DNA from: Diphasiastrum complanatum
Lineage: Eukaryota > Streptophyta > Lycopodiopsida > Lycopodiales > Lycopodiaceae
DNA: 64,000 bases
Assembly: GCA_029204225.1 (NCBI GenBank)
Contig: CM055097.1
Coordinates: forward strand, 11,593,828 to 11,657,827
Direction: 5' to 3'
The notes under the pieces were generated by a model. It searched no databases and had not been told where the DNA came from. It saw nothing but the letters and a program-made list of their open reading frames with translations. Numbering within the stretch: the first letter of the stretch is position 1; each line of letters starts with the position of its first letter. Positions 1 to 10,090 of the stretch are shown one piece after another. The translations under genes were made by a program, and so were the position numbers.

Positions 1-9
1 GCTACCAAT

Positions 10-2491
10 TTGTGTCTAGATTTTAAGTCTGTAACTCATCTTCTCAGATATGTATGTGAAGGAAATAGCGGATTACTTGGATATTGTCAAAGGTTGCGAG
101 ATATTGGAATGCATAGCATATCTTGTCTGAATCAACAATTACAGTTTGCTAATCAACAATTGCAACATGCAAAATCAACAATTGCTTCATTATGTGCAAC
201 ACACTAGTGCTGAAAACAATGCACTCAAGAATGCTATGTCAAAGTTGAATGCTACTGTCACTACTCTTCGAGGATCAAACCAAGAAATGTTAGAATCCAT
301 GAAAAAGTTGCGATTCGAGAGTTTAAATTCTTTTGTTGATCTAAAAGTTATCAATAAGGCAATGATGAAGAGAAAAATAAAGAGAGTACCGATGAAGAAT
401 ATTGATGACCTATCTACACATAGCGGCAATAAAAAAAAAGAATACGAGCATTCAAGTATGTTGTCATCTAAATTGTTTATTTGATTTGTATATGTCATTT
501 AAGTTTGATTTGCACTTGATAACATGGATTATTTATTTATATATAATAATTTGAGTTTCATATGTTTGTTGTAGATCATGTTTCGTGGCAAAGAACTATT
601 TAACAGATCGTTCATGCATTGGATCATCTTTAAGTCATGTTTTCCCAAGAAAGTCAGCAAAGGAAATGATAAAAAATGCTTGGTTTGAAAAAATGAAAAA
701 TGAAATTGTAGAGACTGTTTTGATTAAGGTTCAATCATACTTGGATGCGAATGTGATACACGGTGCATGTGATGTATCTGGAATTAGCAGAAATGCTTAT
801 TCTACTTTTTTTAGAATAGTTAAAGAAGCTTTTTCCCAAGTGATGGTGAAGAAAATCAATCTTCCGCGTCCATATCGGGTAAGATTAGCTAGAAATTTTT
901 ATAATGACGGAATGTTCAAAGTAGTTGGCCAACCACTTCATATAACTAGATTATACAAATCAAAATATGGTGAGCTCAATTACAACGATTGCAATAATAT
1001 TTTCCTTGATATTGAAAATGTTCTAAAATACATTATTTGATTCTATAAACTAGACGAACATCAAGTAAATGGAAAGATCATTATTGTAATAAAATTGGAT
1101 GAATCTGAAATCAACAAGGGTCGGAAGTTGGAACGTGTGAGTGTCACCTTGATGAACAAAATTTCAGATACAGATGATTGAACGTTTAGTGTTCAATCGG
1201 AAAATCACATATGGTGGTTGGCGGCATTTCAGGTATACATTCCAATTTTCATTTAGAATATCTATATTAACAATTCATACCTTGCCAGTTTTTATTGACA
1301 TGTGATGCATTACTTGTTTCTCTACAGGTCTTGAAAGAGGACCATAAAATACTATCATGGATATTTTCAAAAACAAACTATGGCGAGATTATAAAGAGAC
1401 ATTTGGAGGGTGAGAAATCTACAATCGAAAACCATGGAAGTTTTCAAATTCAATGGAACCTTGCAGGGGATTTGAAAACATTAAAATGTATGTATAATGT
1501 CTCTCATGGGGCAACATCAAAGCATCCATGTCTTTATTGCATGAAGGATTGCTACAATATGAATTTGGGACGATCAACAAACATTGGCCCAACACGAGAA
1601 GCTGAAGATCCAAATATGAAAAGTGTCTTGCCAATTCCATTAAAATATGTTCACTATGCACATTGCATGCAGAGATTCGTATTATTGAAAAACTAATTTA
1701 CCTGCATATTCTACTAGCATGGAATCATAAACCAGAGTCAGTGGCTAAAGCAGCAATTAGGAGGCTGGAAATAGTTTTGTCAAATGCAGGACTACATAAA
1801 GGGAATGTCACAATTGAAAAAAGTGACAGACTCTCAGGGAAAAAAGAAAACGTTCCTAATAAGCCATCAATTGGAGGTGCTAAAGCAAGAAGATTTTTAT
1901 CCAATCACAAATGCAAAGAATCAAGTGTCAGATACAAAATTTGGAGAGAAATTGTTCAAGCCACACGAACATTGGAAGGAAGTAATTGAGTGGAAAAGGG
2001 ACAAGTGTGGACCAACTTAGACAAACTCATGGGTGTTATTATGAAAGAAAACCTATCATCAGAAGATATGAGGACTTTGCAAAATCATTGCACCACATTT
2101 GTAAAATCTGTATATGATTGTTGGGGAAAAGACAACGTTACTCATAACATGGTGCTAATCTATATCATTACTGGTACTTTTTTCATTCAGGCTTAAATTT
2201 TTTTTCTATTGATGTAACTAATCAAAACTATTGTTTGCAGCACATCCTTCTTCATTATACAACTTATTTTGTATCTGGTCATCACAAGGCATGGAAAAAT
2301 CTCATTGGCAAGCAAGGGGAGCATTTCATAGAGCAATAAATCATGGAGGACACAATTCAAGAAATAAATATATAGTTCTTTTTCAGCTGTTTTACAGAAG
2401 AGCACAATTTAGATATCAAGCTAAAGACTCGCCAAGTATTACGATATTTCGAAAGGCATTCAAATTCATTACAAAAGAGAGATCCTTGTAA
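10..2491 (+). pseudogene. Broken, intron-containing transposon-like protein gene (family not named)
   Basis: I do not recognise the family with certainty. A Gln/Asn-rich, probably coiled-coil start (10-484) is followed by a long exon in one frame from about 575 to 1232. A clean GT-AG intron (1233-1327, phase 0) leads to a segment with W-x-LAGDLK, then KHPCLYC (a CxxC pair) near 1525-1545. The reading continues with PSIGGAKARRFL near 1865-1900. A second phase-1 intron (2174-2240) joins to SSQGMEKSHWQA near 2280. This layout resembles the uncharacterised transposon-borne proteins of eukaryotes (KDZ/Zisupton-like context is possible, not shown). In-frame TGA stops at 1038, 1176 and 1987 and a frameshift near 1655 make this copy non-functional. 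All three stops could be TGG-to-TGA changes. The 5' end may lie outside the window. Confidence 0.5.
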
Positions 2492-2520
2492 TATATCAAA
2501 AATCTATTACAAAAAATTAT

Positions 2521-4044
2521 TTAATTATCATCATCATCCTCTTCAAGATTCAACAGATGGTTGTCATGAAGGAATAATCTCCTTTCATATGGATCCAAAA
2601 ATTCTAGATTTTTCCTCTTGCTCATATCAATGTAACCCGAATAAAAGGCCATTGCAAATGATCTTTTGGTAGTCTCATTGGGAGTATAACCCAATATCTT
2701 AATAGCCAAATCTCTCTTCACAAAAAGTATTTTATATGTTCCTCTTGCGTACTTATGGCCTCCTAAACAAATTGATAATGATTTGATGGCCATAATGATA
2801 GTGGTTGCATATGGATTATAAGATGAATGATATATACAAATCTCATTATTTTGAAAGTTTTTCAAATAATGAGATAGAGAAACATCTTTTCTCCCAGCTG
2901 ATACACCTCGAACGCCTCCATGTCTCATACCAAAGGCATCTATTTCAATAGCATCTTGTAAACGAGAAAAGAAAATAAATTTAGAATGATACAACACTGC
3001 AAACTCAATAAGAAAACTGAACAATATCAATACCAATAAGAAATAAGAATACTGAACAATATCAATACCAATATTATATCTACTTACCAGATCATAATCA
3101 TCGTAATCAATGACGTTTGCTCTGCTGATGTCATGTCCTCCAATGGCCTCTACATTTTCGGAGGGGATATATCTAGCCCTAGGGGGATATCTTTTTTGAA
3201 ATTCCTCCTCTGTAGGCAAAGTCTTTTCATAGGCTTTAGATTTTTCAATCATGACCTCCAAGGCTGTCAGATTTCAAATTGCCATATTTATCATAATCTA
3301 TCTCACTTTTAAGGTCATCATATGAGTAATCAACACTGTTAGAAAATTCTGATAAATTTTGAGCAAAAATTGAGAGGATTTCATCCTCTCTCAGATTCAA
3401 TACATCTTCTATATCATTAATTGAAATATAACATTCATTATTTATAAAATATAAAGGAACATCGAGTAGAGTTAAGATGGAAGACAATCAGAGAGGAATA
3501 TAGAACGAGGGAGAGTTTTTTGATAATCTGAAGCCATAGAAGCTTCAACTTCAACCCCTATATCAGTATCTGCATCATTTACATCAACTGGAGCAAGTGC
3601 AGATGCTTCGATCAATGGAACAGTTGAAGATTCAACAGACTCATCATCTAGAATTTCAGCAGATATGTAGAACACAAAAGCCATTCCTTTGATTAGAAGG
3701 CAACATATTCTTTTGTGGATATCACAGTATATATTTCTTTTGAAATGGTCATGCAGGTTAGAGTACTTTCTATTGTGTTTATGCTTATAGAATGTTTGGA
3801 AATGTACAAGGTCCTGGAAATGAACGAAACAAAAATTATCTATATCCATGATAGGAGTACTAATAATCTGAGAAAAATTGTCAAGATAAGAAATTAAATT
3901 ATAACGATTCTCATAAACTAGCTTATTGATATCGAAGGGAGCAAAAAAATAACTAGAAAAATACTCTAATTTGTCAGATGGAATGTCACTGGTATTAAAA
4001 AAATCCATAAGTTTGTCATCTGAGGCCATGGAGGAACTAGCCAT
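2521..4044 (-). CDS. Hypothetical protein locus in three overlapping reading segments
   Basis: Three minus-strand segments follow each other: 4044-3472 (190 aa, ATG start, MASSSMASDDKLMDFF), 3487-3245 (80 aa) and 3261-2521 (246 aa), with 16-17 base overlaps. They are probably one gene split by introns or frameshifts. The last segment has a GTAAGTAG donor-like site at about 3087 followed by an AT-rich stretch that translates as a hydrophobic run, so a retained intron is likely; the acceptor is not clear. After it come RHGGVRGVSAGRKD and an acidic C-terminus (NLEEDDDDN). No known domain is recognised. The ATG at 4044 lies 11 bases from a 69-bp unit (4055-4123) and the gene diverges from the histone-like gene at 5410. 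Confidence 0.4.
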
Positions 4045-4054
4045 ATTGAATCCG

Positions 4055-4123
4055 ATATCGGTTCAACGCGTCAGATAAATATCGGTAGAGGAATAAAGCA
4101 AAGTGTGCGCGCTGATCCGATAT
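4055..4123 (+). repeat. 69-bp unit 1 (forward)
   Basis: Left end ATATCGGTTCAACGCGTC, right end GCGCGCTGATCCGATAT. The outer 7 bases are a perfect inverted repeat; the inner arm bases are asymmetric, which gives the unit an orientation. It lies just upstream of the ATG at 4044. Confidence 0.75.
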
Positions 4124-4617
4124 GGTAAGTCTGAGAATGAAATTTTCCGAAAAAAAAACAAGAAGGCTAGAGAGTTCAGAATAAAAGCATACGGAATCGA
4201 AATATGGAAAGTGGTGCACATATTTATAGCCAATTCCTGTTGATCACAGCCGTAAATGTGTGAAATAACGAATTATGATTTACAGCCTATATTTATCCAC
4301 CAATCAGAATGAGACTAATTAGTACCTATGCCGAAATACATTAACTAGTCCAGTTTTAGATTCAACGATTCATCATTAGCCCTGCGTTGGAATACATTAA
4401 ATAGACAATCACTAGCCTCCTAGAATAATCATTAAAAAAATTATAAACAATTGATTAATGGATATCATTGAAAAACGTGAACGAGGAGAATTATTACAAT
4501 CTCTCGTCCTATTCAAGCACCGTAAAGACAAAAAATTTTCTTTTGAGATAATGTTCATTCAGAACATTTTCATAAGTCTTTCATTATGCTATCCAGTATG
4601 ATTTTTCTATGTATGGG

Positions 4618-4686
4618 ATATCGGATCAGCGCGCCTGGCAGACGATTTATTTGCTGCATTTGGACTGCATGCGTCGAATCGCTATT
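4618..4686 (-). repeat. 69-bp unit 2 (reverse)
   Basis: Left end ATATCGGATCAGCGCGC, right end GCATGCGTCGAATCGCTAT. The two arm types are swapped relative to unit 1, so the unit is inverted. The centre is unrelated to that of the other units. Confidence 0.75.
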
Positions 4687-4827
4687 CTAGGACCAAAATA
4701 TTATCAAATTTTTTGAAACTATCGGACCCTATATGCATGATCAAAGCTTGATTCGGAAGACTCTTCATATTGGCCAAAGTTATGCAAAATCTATCGAATC
4801 CAGTTCTGATCATTCATATTGCGCCCA

Positions 4828-4896
4828 ATATCGGATGAGTGCGCAAGAATACATACTATGGTTGTCAAATATTTTATATGCGCGTTGATTAGCTAT
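4828..4896 (-). repeat. 69-bp unit 3 (reverse, diverged)
   Basis: Left end ATATCGGATGAGTGCGC, right end GCGCGTTGATTAGCTAT. Length and arm positions match the other units; orientation is less certain. Confidence 0.65.
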
Positions 4897-5237
4897 CGAG
4901 TGAAAATCTGGCCTTTGGAATTCTCCAAAATTATAATAATTGGATATAAAAAAGGTCTTATATTTAAAGCTTAACGTTGTCAATTTCAGCATTAAATGGT
5001 AGAAGTGTGTCTAATTGTAGATGTAACCATACTTTATTTGAAATTAGTTCTGGTTAATTTGATATGGACTAATCATTTTGATGAGTGATGAATATTTAGA
5101 TTGATTTGATTGACAAGCCTCTGAGTAATCATCATTGTAATACGAGCCACCACATTTGCAATCATTTCTGATTTTCTCTATATATACTGATCGACGATGC
5201 TGAAATGCTTTTGCTTATAGTTATTTGTATCCATGCG

Positions 5238-5306
5238 ATATTGATTCAGCGCGCTCGAAAACAACTTCCTTCAATCCATTCTTAGTCGCTCGCGCCCATT
5301 CACTAC
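5238..5306 (-). repeat. 69-bp unit 4 (most diverged)
   Basis: Left end ATATTGATTCAGCGCGC is clear. The right end CGCGCCCATTCACTAC keeps the arm pattern only loosely, but at exactly the expected distance. Confidence 0.5.
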
Positions 5307-5331
5307 CAGCTAACGGAATTATTTAGCTCAG

Positions 5332-5400
5332 GTATCGCTTCGACGCGTCCGACCTGAGGTCTGATCATGAAATCAACATTATCGCGCGCTGATCCGCTAC
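5332..5400 (+). repeat. 69-bp unit 5 (forward)
   Basis: Left end GTATCGCTTCGACGCGTC, right end GCGCGCTGATCCGCTAC. It ends 9 bases before the first codon of the histone H3-like reading frame at 5410. Confidence 0.7.
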
Positions 5401-5409
5401 TACACAGTA

Positions 5410-6470
5410 GTGGCACGGACCAAACAGACAATACGAGGGCATTCAGGTGGAATACCAATTTCAGGTGCGGGTCAGGAAAATCCACAACCACCACCTTGTC
5501 CACCACCACCTCCTCCTAGGCCAAGGGGCAGAAGAAGAGACCCACCCTGGCTCAAGGATATTCAGAAGCTTCAAAAGACAAATAATCTTTTGATTCCAAA
5601 ATCTCACACAGAGGTCCATCAGACAGGTGACAAGAAGTCTATCTGCAGATGTGAGATGGACGGTAACGACAATTGAGGCGCTGCACACAGCATATGAGAA
5701 TTTCCAGGTGAAATTTTTTTTCTGATATTGTTGTTGCAGCTGTCGATGCCAAGAGAGTGACCATCATGCCCAAGGATCTCCACATTGTGTTCAGACTTCG
5801 AGACACATATGACAAGTTTGCTGAATACTTTAGACTTGCTCCCTCCTCTCCCCCAAAACAAGATTCAGAGAGGAGAAAACAAAAGCAATCTCAACCAACC
5901 CGGCTTGTTATTTGTATACAGAGCGGGAGTGTTTCAAAGAAAAGGAGGTCTCTCGACCCTCCATCTAAAGCGAGGGATTTTTCCAAGCCATCTCCTCTGA
6001 ATACTATTCTTTCTTCTAGGCATTCTCCTCCTAATTCTCTTCTTAAGTCTCCTTCTTCTCCTTCCACTCCATCTTTAACTTCTCCTGCTAAATCTTCCTC
6101 TCCTAACCAATCTCCACCTCCTAAATCTCCTCCTCCTCCTAAACCCGTAAATATTAGTTCCCCTCCTCCTATTGCTGGAAGCGATTTAGATGATTTTGTT
6201 AGTGCAAAGGCAGAATCAATTTTGAATGACAATTCTTTATGTGGTTTATCAGCGTTACTTCCGTCACCCTCTGCACTTGCCTTTGTAAATAGTTCTCAAT
6301 ATGTACAGTATGATCAATTGTTAAATACGTATCTTAAAGGTTTAGGTCCTCGATACAGTTTTAGGATGCCGAAGACCAATGCTGGTCTCCCCCTTTCTAG
6401 TTTAGATACTGGTGAATTAGAAAGTAGGGATAAAATTCTAGGGGACAATGTAGGATGTGGGGCAGTTTAG
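5410..6470 (+). pseudogene. Divergent histone H3 (CENH3-like) with long Pro/Ser-rich C-terminal extension
   Basis: The frame opens with ARTKQT, the invariant H3 tail start, then GHSGG and a proline run. The histone fold follows: QKLQK and LLIP (5560-5600), QRSIRQV with ADVRWT and EALHTAYENF (5605-5710), FFSDIVVAAVDAKRV, and the H3 signature AKRVTIMPKD (about 5745-5775). LLIP, RWT and FSD match plant CENH3 more than canonical H3, but the loop-1 length is that of H3. Two one-base excesses, near 5602 and in a T8 run at 5714-5721, split the fold over three frames. The first codon is GTG, so either the ATG has mutated or an A|TG is made by splicing at the upstream CAGTAG. The frame then continues about 200 residues as a Ser/Pro-rich linker. 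It would package DNA if functional; here it is broken or mis-sequenced. Confidence 0.8.
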
Positions 6471-6926
6471 TACTGGATGGAGTTCTTCCAAACCCTATTG
6501 TTTATAGATGTTGCATTGTTTTCCCTTGCAACATTTGATTTCCCTGATTTCAAAAGTTTGCACGATGATATGCTCTAATACGTCAGACTGGAGACTCCAA
6601 TTCTCATGCTGCCATACATATCAAAGTAAGTGTCTATTTTTCATATTTTATTTTATTGAATTTTTCATATGAATTTTGATTTCACATTGATTCTCATAAA
6701 TTTTTTGTTTTTTGATTTCAGTGATCATTGGAGCTTATATGTGTTGTCTCTGTACGTCAATGATGAGGGTGTGTGTATTCCAGTTTATTTGAAGATGAAC
6801 TCTATTACACACACACACAAAAATTGCCAGGACCCATACACAGAAAATACTAGAACTCTTTCTGGTACCAAATGCAAAAGCATACTCAAAGTTGAAAATG
6901 GTTGATGCATAGGTAGAAATTTTTCA

Positions 6927-6995
6927 ATATCGGTTCGACGCGCCCTTTTAGTTATTGTTTGGTTTATTTTTCCAACGTGTGTGCTGATCCGATAT
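6927..6995 (+). repeat. 69-bp unit 6 (forward), in protease intron
   Basis: Left end ATATCGGTTCGACGCGCC, right end GTGCTGATCCGATAT. It lies between the exons carrying the catalytic His and Cys. Confidence 0.75.
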
Positions 6996-7012
6996 TCAAT
7001 CAAAAAATTTTG

Positions 7013-7081
7013 ATATTGGTTCGACCCGCGCTTGTTTCCATTGTAGATTTTATTCTTACATCCTACACGTTGATCCGATAT
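7013..7081 (+). repeat. 69-bp unit 7 (forward), in protease intron
   Basis: Left end ATATTGGTTCGACCCGCG, right end CACGTTGATCCGATAT. It starts 17 bases after unit 6 ends and has the same length and orientation. Confidence 0.7.
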
Positions 7082-7663
7082 CTCATAATGTTCAAATTTG
7101 GATTCTGCAGTCCTCCCAGCAGGTTGATTTTGTCAGTTGTGGTTGGTATATCGTATGCAATGCCACACTTTTTTTAATTGGCTTGCATTACAAGATGGAC
7201 TTCCAAATCTGGAAGAGGTAATTTTCAATTAATTACTTTTAATTGTGTTTTTGTTTTTTTCATATACAAACTCCTGCTTACTGATCTTTGATTAATTACA
7301 TTTAACTGTGTTTATGTTTTTTTTTTTCAGTTCAAATGCCCAAAGGTCTCCCCAATGGAGATAATGCACTTCAGGTAGGAGACCATAAAGCTTGTGATTG
7401 AAAATTCATATCCAGTTGTAGTGGCCGAGTGTTCTCCACCCAAGCTACTTCCCACTGGAGAAATGGATTTATGGATTATAGATAGTTGATTCTGTTTAAA
7501 TATTCGTCTCACTTGATGTGGATGAGACATATGTACTGAAAATTTTAATAGAAATATACTTATAGTTTTTTATACGGTTGTTCTTACTTGTTATTTTTCC
7601 TCTTATCAATTCAAGTTATGACTCATTCATCTTCAATTTCTACTGTTTTTTTGACATGTTTGT

Positions 7664-7877
7664 TTTTCATTGCCTTGGTCTGCCTTGTCTTTACCATGGT
7701 CTTTTTTGGATAAGTTCAGAATGATGATCTGATTGAACCTTTGCAACAACCAATCCAAACATGCGACATTAGTTCACTTAGAATTGTTGTAGCAAAGCTT
7801 CGATCAGATCATCATCTGAACATATCCAAATATGCCAAGACAAGGACAATACACACCAAGGCAATGAAGACCAAAAA
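7664..7877. repeat. Long imperfect inverted repeat
   Basis: The left arm (about 7664-7749, from TTTTTCATTGCCTTGG to GATGATCTGATTGAAC and TTTGCAACAA) is matched in reverse complement by about 7785-7877 (TTGTTGTAGCAAAGC, then GATCAGATCATC, ending CAATGAAGACCAAAAA). The arms are roughly 90 bp with a 35-bp spacer and small gaps. It could form a large hairpin or record a local inverted duplication just downstream of the protease gene. Confidence 0.6.
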
Positions 7878-7935
7878 TACAACCGATATATACGAGACTT
7901 CAACAAGGGCAAGCGTCGATTGTAGTGATCACTGG

Positions 7936-8030
7936 AGTTCAAGTACTGAAGATCTCCCCAATGGACATAGTGCATTTCTAGCAGGAGACAATGAATCTTG
8001 CTATCGAAAACTCATATTATCCAGTTGAAT
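7936..8030 (+). pseudogene. Second, diverged copy of the protease C-terminal exon
   Basis: CTCCCCAATGGACATAGTGC and the following bases up to TATCCAGTTG copy 7344-7420 with scattered changes. In translation SPMDIVHF, a stop, then QETMNLAIENSYYP parallels SPMEIMHF, a stop, then ETIKLVIENSYP. Only the last exon is seen again, so this is a partial duplication, not a second protease. Confidence 0.55.
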
Positions 8031-8336
8031 TACATTGTGTTTTGCACCATGGAAATGGAGATCAAAGAGCCTCATAGAAAAAGTGGTTCATATATTTTCA
8101 AAAATGATGTATACAAAAAATTGTATTACATAATACAAAATTCCATAGTTCATAATCTATGGATCTTCAATTTCGATGGATGTTCCAATGTCTTTGCATT
8201 TTATATGCTCTTCCTGCCTTACTCTTACCTGCACAAGATAAATTGTTTTAGTTATATATTTTATGAGACTGATTCACTTAGAAATAGAAAAAAAGGAATA
8301 TTTTTATATGGCATAACGTTCCTTTACACCATTCAA
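8031..8336. other. AT-rich non-coding gap
   Basis: No gene, RNA or repeat recognised between the exon duplicate and the next minus-strand segment. Confidence 0.4.
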
Positions 8337-8594
8337 TCAAAATTGATAATACTGAGGTAGATCGAAGTGCAAAATGTCTAGTTCTGATCGAATGTGATTG
8401 AGACACCAATCTTCCTCGACCTCAACCATTGCAAGAATGTTGTCATTTCTTTTCACTGTTATCTGAAGTTGCTCTTGAGGGTTTATACCAAAATCTTGAT
8501 CAAGTGGCTTCCAAACATTTTTGCATTTAATCCATCTTCTGTAATACAGCATCAAAGTGAGCATTTGTTTTTCGATGTGATATCTAAATGTCAT
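8337..8594 (-). CDS. Hypothetical protein segment, likely 3' exon of the 8837-9424 gene
   Basis: An 85-residue minus-strand frame contains MVEVEEDWCLNHIRSELD, a hydrophobic/charged pattern of the kind seen in ubiquitin-like folds, but no family is assigned. The same strand between 8600 and 8720 can read ADIITELLDDGWD, so this may be the 3' part of a gene starting at 9424, split by introns. Function unknown. Confidence 0.3.
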   Translation of the reverse strand: MTFRYHIEKQMLTLMLYYRRWIKCKNVWKPLDQDFGINPQEQLQITVKRNDNILAMVEVEEDWCLNHIRSELDILHFDLPQYYQF

Positions 8595-8836
8595 GGATGA
8601 GTAACATACTCTGCACTCAACTTGCTGATTTTATTTTGTATCCCAACCATCATCCAACAACTCGGTGATTATATCAGCACTCAAGTCCTTACAAATAAAC
8701 ATTGTTTTCGTTCTCCGAACATTGCATTTGAAAAAAAATCAACAAAAATAGTAAAAGGTAGATACCAACTTAATCTATTATTCTTTGATCCAGTGCTACA
8801 TTTTAACATACCCTGAATATCAATATATAGCCTAGG

Positions 8837-9424
8837 TCAAAAACTTTCTGAAATTGCTGCATCAGGAGAAATCCATTCCTCACTCGAAAAATTTGGTAGA
8901 GGATATGGCTCTAATTTACCAACTAAACCATTTTTATCAGGAAAATAGGTGTGATCATAAAAAAAAACTCCTGACTCTAAAAGTGATTTTGGAGAACGAC
9001 CTTTATATTGTAAAATACCGATATTTGAATGTATGACATCAATTATTCCTGCAATATAATTTAAAGAAAATGCTAAATCTAAAGAAATTGAATATGAAAA
9101 CTTACAATTGCATTTCTTTCTATCATTTGGAATCAGATCATGAATGTTGAGATCATTGTGAAGATAAGCACGCTGAACTAAAACTTCCGTGATAGATTGA
9201 CCGGCATGTAATACTTTAAAATCCATTATCCTACCTTTCCAAGAGCTTCTATATATGTTATTCAATCTTTTTCTTTTTTGGAATGAGCCTTTTGTAGAGG
9301 GATGCATCAAGATCCATTGATATTTTCGATATATTCTTGGTATCCATTGATGTTCTGCATTTTTTTCATTGCAAATCTTGATTGCATCAATGGTTCCTCT
9401 TGGCCTCCGATTATGTGTAGTCAT
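8837..9424 (-). CDS. Hypothetical protein, lysine/arginine-rich N-terminus, probable 57-nt intron
   Basis: A 195-residue frame starts at the ATG at 9424 (MTTHNRRPRGTIDAIKICNE). The first half is basic (RKRLNNIYRSSWKGRIMDF) and contains HDLIPNDRKKCNC. Directly after this lies a consensus donor GTAAGTTTTC (9105) and an acceptor ATATTGCAG (9049), bounding 57 nt without stops; this is short for a plant intron and would keep the frame either way. The second part reads GIIDVIHSN, GVFFYDHTYFPDKNG and ends in an acidic/hydrophobic tail. I recognise no domain. The frame is intact, unlike the neighbouring genes. Confidence 0.45.
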   Translation of the reverse strand: MTTHNRRPRGTIDAIKICNEKNAEHQWIPRIYRKYQWILMHPSTKGSFQKRKRLNNIYRSSWKGRIMDFKVLHAGQSITEVLVQRAYLHNDLNIHDLIPNDRKKCNCKFSYSISLDLAFSLNYIAGIIDVIHSNIGILQYKGRSPKSLLESGVFFYDHTYFPDKNGLVGKLEPYPLPNFSSEEWISPDAAISESF

Positions 9425-9769
9425 TAGTTGAAAATACGAGTACGCAAGCTGAGATTGGAAAGAATGTAGAGCTTGCGAGGTAAACCTAAGAATGACAAGA
9501 AAATGAGAGATAGAATGAAGAAAATGAGAGGTATACCTATGGATGACAAGAAGTTCCTTAACTACAAGGATTCGCTAACCACAGTTTATGACTATTGACG
9601 TCAAGTCAACCTCGAGTGAACAATGACGGGCAACATAAGAGTATTCAGGCAGTAATTGTGGTCCAATCACAATTGTTTATTCTGCCTGGCGGGATATTTG
9701 AAAATCACAAAAATTTGGTTGGAAAAGTTGAATACAATTTTTGACCATCAACCACTGTTACAGTTCGTC
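9425..9769. other. Non-coding boundary between the unusual 5' locus and the retroelement region
   Basis: Contains short near-repeats (AATGACAAGAAAATGAGAG and relatives near 9490-9550). No gene recognised. A plausible edge of the 1-9.6 kb locus, but no terminal repeat or target duplication was found. Confidence 0.3.
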
Positions 9770-10090
9770 ACAGATGGACACCATTCATTGATTCTCCCCA
9801 AAATGACTTGGGAGATGCTTTTGAACCTTGAAAAAGGGTACGATTTTTCTTCTTGGCTACACCATTTTGTTGAGGTGTGTTGGGGCATGAATGCTCCTTC
9901 TTGATGCCATTTTGATCAAAAAACGCTTTGAAGCTTTTGGAGATGTATTATCCACCTCCATCTGACCTTAGCTCCTTGATGTTAGTGCCAAATTGCTTAA
10001 CCAAAAGAGCTTTGAATTTTAGAATAGTTTCAAACACCATAGCTTTTGAAGACAAAAGGTACATCCAAGTAAATCTACTTGTTTAACCCG
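9770..10090 (-). pseudogene. Ty1/copia integrase core fragment
   Basis: Read on the minus strand, 10080-9800 gives FKALLVKQFGTNIKELRSDGG, FFDQNGIKKEHSCPNTPQQN and GVAKKKNRT, the typical central part of a copia integrase (second catalytic Asp region, then the [14 protein letters not shown] block). The catalytic Glu codon of that block has become Lys. Nothing flanking forms an LTR, so this is a relic. Confidence 0.7.

Follow-up and report, generated by a model that had tools for sequence, protein, structure and literature searches.

The 64,000-nucleotide stretch analyzed here (hereafter the window; positions 11,593,828 to 11,657,827 of the forward strand of contig CM055097.1, assembly GCA_029204225.1, Diphasiastrum complanatum) opens within a DNA transposon whose genes follow in the order transposase-like candidate (plus strand), minus-strand gene, H3-like/C48-like gene (plus strand), and fourth gene (minus strand). 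The second and third of these are divergent, and seven short units with conserved inverted ends and a free center lie between their start codons and in a predicted intron, recognized by GT/AG in the sequence, of the H3-like/C48-like gene. Coordinates are given in Table 1.

Table 1. Units, genes, and extent of the transposon in the window (positions counted from the first nucleotide of the window)
Feature	Coordinates	Strand	Length	Remarks
S1	4055..4123	+	69 bp	end 10 nt from ATG (4044) of minus-strand gene
S1b scar	4150..4154	.		eighth unit deleted here in window copy, junction 4153/4154
S2	4618..4685	-	68 bp	
S3	4828..4896	.	69 bp	A/A type
S4	5238..5306	+	69 bp	right half-site weak in window copy; counterparts in L010, L012, L013
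S5	5332..5400	+	69 bp	end 9 nt from start codon of H3-like gene
S6	6927..6995	+	69 bp	inside predicted intron 6913-7110
S7	7013..7081	+	69 bp	same predicted intron as S6 (6913-7110); probably old tandem duplicate of S6
Transposon, part within window	1..9790	.		begins 593 bp before the window (L029:7408); cut off on the right at 9790
Transposase-like candidate gene	555..2500	+		judged from look of sequence; no Pfam match; frames broken
Minus-strand gene	2521..4044	-		divergent from H3-like gene; open reading frame pieces 3472-4044 and 2521-3273; no Pfam match
H3-like tail and histone fold, then proline-rich part	5410..6470	+		frame broken in window copy; start codon GTG
C48/Ulp1-like catalytic part (HW ... 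Q ... C)	6721..7215	+		at least two predicted exons; Peptidase_C48 below cut-off
Fourth gene	8837..9424	-		

Units of two facing half-sites

The units were compared with the genome searched (1,744,706,496 bases, 1.74 Gb), in which repeat counts are possibly lower bounds, and with 20 stretches of 10 kb (loci L009 to L028) picked from the first listed half-site matches, all on contig C1; they were chosen mostly at clustered matches and are not a random sample. Fifteen loci (L009-L014 and L018-L026) align with the window over at least 1 kb, and L017 over 2.4 kb; L015, L016, and L027 have terminal inverted repeats (TIRs) in common with the element, and L016 also aligns with it near the right end. 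Because of kilobase alignment or common TIRs, 19 of the 20 loci are members of the family or share its ends; L028 has neither an alignment nor a TIR match.

Each unit is a pair of CpG-rich half-sites of 17 bp that face each other, one reading ATATCGG(A/T)TC(R)(R)CGCGC and the other the reverse complement of this (mismatches allowed). The seven units that a first-pass annotation had listed were borne out at their coordinates. The full-length pattern with at most three mismatches recovered three of the seven in the window, each on both strands, and none in 100 dinucleotide shuffles of the window; within the window, chance is excluded as an explanation. A weight matrix for the half-site was trained on 96 units from the 20 loci and the window (including six of the window's seven); it returned 14 half-sites scoring at least 11.3 in the window copy of the 10.4-kb element, 14/14 of them in the seven units, the next best score being 8.1. 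The annotation had put the length at 69 bp in every case, which is true of six units; S2 is 1 bp shorter, its half-site starts being 51 bp apart rather than the 52 bp of the other six. Counterparts of S2 are also 68 bp in 10 other loci, and 69-bp S2-like units occur in L011 (6389) and L014 (5461), the likeness being judged by eye. The right end of S4 has six mismatches in the window (counted by eye) and is better in L010. The eighth unit, S1b, deleted in the window copy, is present in 10 of the 15 kilobase-aligned loci and probably in L014 as well. The centers had been described as unrelated: they are indeed dissimilar between sites of one element, but at the same site they are homologous across copies. 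An initial clustering of centers chained 90 of 96 units into a single group and was discarded.

Genome-wide, the half-site with at most two mismatches had 7197 + 7198 matches, compared with 60 + 47 for the reversed pattern, which was the control throughout. Exact end pairs were counted over total lengths of 54-84 and 85-115 bp. There were 808 facing pairs in the first range (control: 0), 708 of which measure exactly 69 bp (control: 0), and only five in the second (control: 0), of which the one at C1:68015911 (locus L022) is a deletion that fused two units. Over the lengths counted, spacing is fixed across the genome. Direct orientation yielded 40 places in the same length range (19 + 21; control 5 + 7), vs. 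808 for convergent orientation. Among convergent pairs at most 80 bp apart in the 20 loci and the window, 96 of 108 have half-site starts at 51 (16 pairs), 52 (75), or 53 bp (5), and the predominant 52-bp spacing is compatible with about five helical turns. At base 8, 641 of the 708 exact units (330 + 311) combine an A in one half-site with a T in the opposite one, and in the loci except L015, L017, L027, and L028 it is heterotypic in 74 of 88 units, with 13 A/A and one A/C. The unit is therefore directional, unlike a simple symmetric palindrome, and the strand given for units in Table 1 runs from the T-type half toward the A-type half.

Some of the direct-orientation matches resemble internal deletions or tandem arrays. 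Such an array lies in L028 (4868-5105; the first 3 kb of this locus reads N), where three tandem units with related half-sites and a spacing of 51-52 bp recur with a period of 83-84; no related TIR was found in this locus. The direct-orientation matches suggest arrays similar to that of L028 elsewhere.

Conservation of ends, length, and position

Divergence was measured at eight sites with five to 10 copies each, 68 unit copies in all, hand-chosen with both half-sites (L014, L015-L017, L019, L025, L027, L028, and the second S2-like unit of L011 were left out). Mean pairwise differences were 0.126 in ends, 0.171 in centers, and 0.164 in flanks, and transversions alone gave 0.023, 0.090, and 0.076, respectively, so that the ends have about a quarter of the transversions of the centers. 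The gap between ends and centers is largest for transversions because changes in the ends are mostly transitions at CpG positions, which is expected in methylated dead copies. Insertions and deletions (indels) were counted in 70 alignments that span a unit and 15 partial ones (query L013; L019 and L028 unused). One was found in 2502 end bases, six in 2520 center bases, and 64 in 9992 flank bases (0.4, 2.4, and 6.4 per kb; center vs. flank: P = 0.016), with neighboring units in some flanks, overlapping stretches counted repeatedly, and shared ancestry among the copies. Center substitutions accumulate as in the flanks, by drift, with fewer indels. An earlier indel count (3 in 2088 center bases and 28 in 4251 flank bases) was biased by the choice of units on their spacing and has been replaced.

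Position relative to the genes is kept as well. In all 10 copies looked at, S1 stops exactly 10 nt short of the minus-strand ATG, and in eight of nine S5 stops 9 nt short of the H3-like start codon; L018 has no recognizable S5. S1b (in copies having it), S2, S3, and S4 lie between the two divergent start codons. Similar sites are also found in complete short copies without any open reading frame (ORF) of at least 190 aa, namely L027 (1574 bp, two pairs), L015 (1734 bp, four pairs), and L016 (2009 bp, five pairs). The 52-bp spacing occurs in four pairs of these short copies, all in L016. The T/T-type units of L015, L017, and L027, short elements with related TIRs, have arms extended by GCCCTTAG...CTAAGGGC and variable lengths (56, 62, and 70 bp); two in L017 are tandem copies, and the arms of those in L027 are 41 nt long and 90% complementary.

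S6 and S7 are adjacent, have the same orientation, and are alike at 19 of 35 center bases (P = 0.002 without correction, the smallest value among 110 comparisons), followed by S4 and S6, inverted, at 17 of 35 (P = 0.005). This suggests an old tandem duplication behind S6 and S7, and an adjacent tandem pair in L014 has centers alike at 25 of 35 bases. New units therefore seem to be born by tandem duplication, after which the centers drift while ends and length stay. The first-pass annotation had held that the units do not fit copied repeats and that centers betraying simple duplication would speak against its interpretation. Its argument is corrected in that the units travel with the transposon and the two tandem pairs do resemble duplicates; the case for constraint is not weakened.

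Loss of units is illustrated by two deletions, both imprecise. In the window copy, about 100 bp was removed with S1b (the unit and about 30 bp around it), both ends lying outside the unit with a 4-bp overlap. In L022 (4912-5021), a deletion in GCGC-rich sequence brought the facing half-sites of S6 and S7 together at their inner edges. No precise gain or loss of a single unit was seen among the copies compared. A 69-bp mobile unit, i.e., a very short miniature inverted-repeat transposable element, was considered and is not supported, given the matching positions, the differing centers, and the losses seen, which were all imprecise.

Proposed operators of the transposon and alternative explanations

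Since length and ends matter while the center does not, and since two of the sites abut start codons of the element, we consider it fairly probable that the units are bipartite operators of the DNA transposon, bound by a dimeric and probably element-encoded protein. The two CpG-rich half-sites, facing each other with starts 52 bp apart, would be bound jointly by the dimer, and the middle would be a spacer whose length matters and whose sequence does not. The binder would be made by the element itself, the candidates being the H3-like/Ulp1-like protein and the product of the divergent minus-strand gene. It would control the divergent promoter and might counter silencing as VANC does, whose binding to its motif goes with a loss of DNA methylation, or might also be needed for mobility as TNPA is. 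Of the three interpretations offered in the first-pass annotation (paired binding sites, a recombination site, and a structural RNA stem), the sequence comparisons support the first through fixed genome-wide spacing, convergent orientation, less changed ends, and a center indel rate below that of the flanks.

Several observations weigh against a two-part operator. The 808 pairs are not independent, since many are copies of a handful of sites that multiplied along with the element (in the listed part S1, S6, and S7); independent support for the spacing comes from the eight element sites with differing centers (seven of 69 bp and one of 68 bp) and from further listed center types. At S7, differences are not lower in the ends (0.152) than in the center (0.140). 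The T/T-type pairs of L015, L017, and L027 are spaced at 39, 45, 51, 53, and 59 bp, so the spacing rule is not absolute; given these variable spacings and the 41-nt arms in L027, they may be another kind of site. The two arms stay alike in 30 of the 40 deviations that affect both. No DNA-binding domain was recognized in the element ORF pieces tested, and the predicted structures were uninformative, with a mean predicted local distance difference test score of 44.5 for ORF 2524-3270 (minus) and 30.2 for ORF 8840-9424 (minus).

The lack of a recognized DNA-binding domain in these pieces would also fit a host factor, i.e., a plant transcription factor or chromatin protein binding units that the element took up as components of its promoters, without any partner encoded by the element. 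Such a factor would agree with units adjoining start codons and also lying in a predicted intron. However, 19 of the 20 motif loci, mostly chosen at clusters on contig C1, share alignment or TIRs with the element, and the sites are kept in its short relatives. A host factor is further disfavored because a bipartite site of 34 bp is long for a host promoter element, and we regard it as unlikely, though well short of negligible. We find it improbable that the units are merely old tandem repeats, remnants of duplicated blocks whose ends change slowly by happenstance and have no function. The likeness of the S6 and S7 centers (the lowest P value of 110, uncorrected), that of the L014 pair, and the array of L028 with its period of 83-84 speak for this, but CpG-rich ends should decay faster under methylation, yet they have fewer transversions than the centers and a single indel in 2502 bases, and the position at both start codons is kept.

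An RNA hairpin or small-RNA precursor with the inverted ends as its stem is very improbable. The ends are inverted repeats, the T/T-type arms of L027 are long and complementary, and the 30 both-arm deviations that leave the arms alike would suit a stem. Against it, the arms within a unit agree at 12.04 of 17 positions compared with 12.52 for random pairing, with 1999 of 2000 shuffles of arms across all sites equal to or above the observed value (Watson-Crick matches only); 270 deviations affect one arm, and the 40 that affect both are near the 33.0 expected. Thus, there is no compensatory covariation of the arms, which pair below the random level, and Rfam gave no window match at the gathering threshold. 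We would give equally little credence to a site-specific recombination site or a tiny unit that is mobile independently. In outline, the units with their conserved inverted ends and free center do resemble such sites, the integron attC being an example, and the L022 deletion joins inner edges of two neighboring half-sites. On the other hand, microhomology would suffice for that join in GCGC-rich sequence, units occupy matching positions in the copies, neither exchange nor precise whole-unit gain or loss was seen, and the S1b deletion ends outside the unit.

The element and known systems

In L018 (5382-6125), the frame of the H3-like part is kept; it contains MARTKQTAR and matches the Pfam Histone family (E = 1.9e-18). 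The protein has 5820 homologues, and the 120 listed have 28-37% identity, many of them being named H3 or centromeric H3. In the window, L010, and L022, a single frame runs from the last portion of the histone fold through the proline-rich part into the first portion of the C48-like part, and the catalytic part lies downstream of predicted introns. A composite of several copies matched Peptidase_C48 with E = 0.0042 and 17.4 bits (cut-off 20.7). No protease was among the matches of the catalytic part to solved structures, and a 71-residue window piece returned 0 families. The position of the usual aspartate seems to be N in our own reading. A Ulp1-like identity of the catalytic part is weakly supported by these sequence comparisons. 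Among the papers listed in literature searches, none seemed to deal with a transposon-encoded H3/Ulp1 protein.

A more far-reaching possibility, which we think quite improbable, is that the 69-bp units are sequence-specified loading sites for the element's own H3-like protein, with its ARTKQTAR tail and SUMO-protease-like part, which would form a private nucleosome-like particle at the element's own promoters and act against silencing. The DNA on an H3-H4 tetrasome has about the length of one unit, and the budding yeast point centromere (CDEI-CDEII-CDEIII) likewise has conserved ends around a spacer that is fixed in length and free in sequence.

The TIRs of the element are about 35 bp long (CATTAGGGG...CTCAAAATGGGCCCTTT), and other copies extend about 83 bp past the right cut-off of the window copy, ending in CCCCTAATG. 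No target site duplication was found in any of the five complete copies (L021/L031, L011/L033, L015, L016, and L027; TIRs of about 35 bp, CATTAGGG...), so that the element is either of an unknown superfamily or unusual in its insertion. The half-sites were also considered as copies of the TIRs, the left TIR having ATATGGGCTCAA, but shuffled TIRs did equally well in 35 of 500 cases on the left and 405 of 500 on the right, and the idea was rejected. Pfam returned nothing usable for the ORF pieces of the transposase-like gene or of the minus-strand gene, whose two pieces we infer to form one gene. One transposase-like piece has two homologues at E ≤ 0.01, neither of which carries a name.

Two known systems invite comparison, and by analogy the units may work like the TNPA sites of CACTA elements or the VANC motifs of VANDAL elements. 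In soybean Tgmt*, a CACTA element, inverted pairs have been described of a 17-bp motif that combines AT-rich and GC-rich stretches and for which protein recognition was still to be determined; TNPA of En/Spm is reported to bind its subterminal repeats, and non-autonomous copies must keep such cis sites (PMC2613891). The units resemble these sites in motif length, in the AT-rich and GC-rich parts, in the inverted pairing, and in belonging to a plant DNA transposon. Unlike them, the units are internal, lying at divergent start codons and in a predicted intron, with 14/14 half-sites of the window copy that score at least 11.3 at 4055-7081. Their own 52-bp spacing is nearly fixed. The TIR starts with CATTAGGGG and not with CACTA or its variant CACTG, and the 3-bp target duplication of CACTA elements is absent in 5/5 complete copies. 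Pfam recognized no tnp2-type transposase domain in the ORF pieces tested, which come from broken copies.

VANDAL elements have element-specific motifs in their non-coding parts that multiply by tandem duplication, and some relatives encode a Ulp1-domain protein, KIU being a VANC that carries Ulp1 (PMC5735166, PMC10398659, and PMC13317346). In both systems, a single motif recurs many times in non-coding parts of the element. The VANC21 motif is 9 bp and lies in tandem repeats, whereas two 17-bp half-sites form one unit of fixed length here, and VANDAL TIRs are degenerate (non-TIR Mutator-like elements) as opposed to about 35 bp here. Pieces of broken copies gave no Pfam match to a Mutator-like transposase, and the Peptidase_C48 match of the composite, which is below the cut-off, is a candidate counterpart of the Ulp1 gene of KIU. 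Unlike in KIU, an H3-like part precedes the Ulp1-like part. The element fails defining features of both CACTA and VANDAL.

Should a protein read the units, they would clearly exemplify an operator, placed at two divergent start codons of a transposon, whose half-site sequence and spacing are under constraint but whose middle is free. Together with the gene that seems to join H3-like and Ulp1-like parts, they would open to direct test how a plant transposon that is not among the known anti-silencing families may escape silencing, and the 14,395 half-site matches in one genome would form a natural library for effects of spacing and half-site on binding.

Upstream of the element lies an MA3-domain gene (L029:3-977) with 158 matches, which we take to point to a host among the land plants other than flowering plants, probably a poorly sampled one. 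Among the 120 matches listed, those with names are from plants, mostly at 40-66% identity, and the best identity, to sequences without names, is 74%, over 68-71% of the query.

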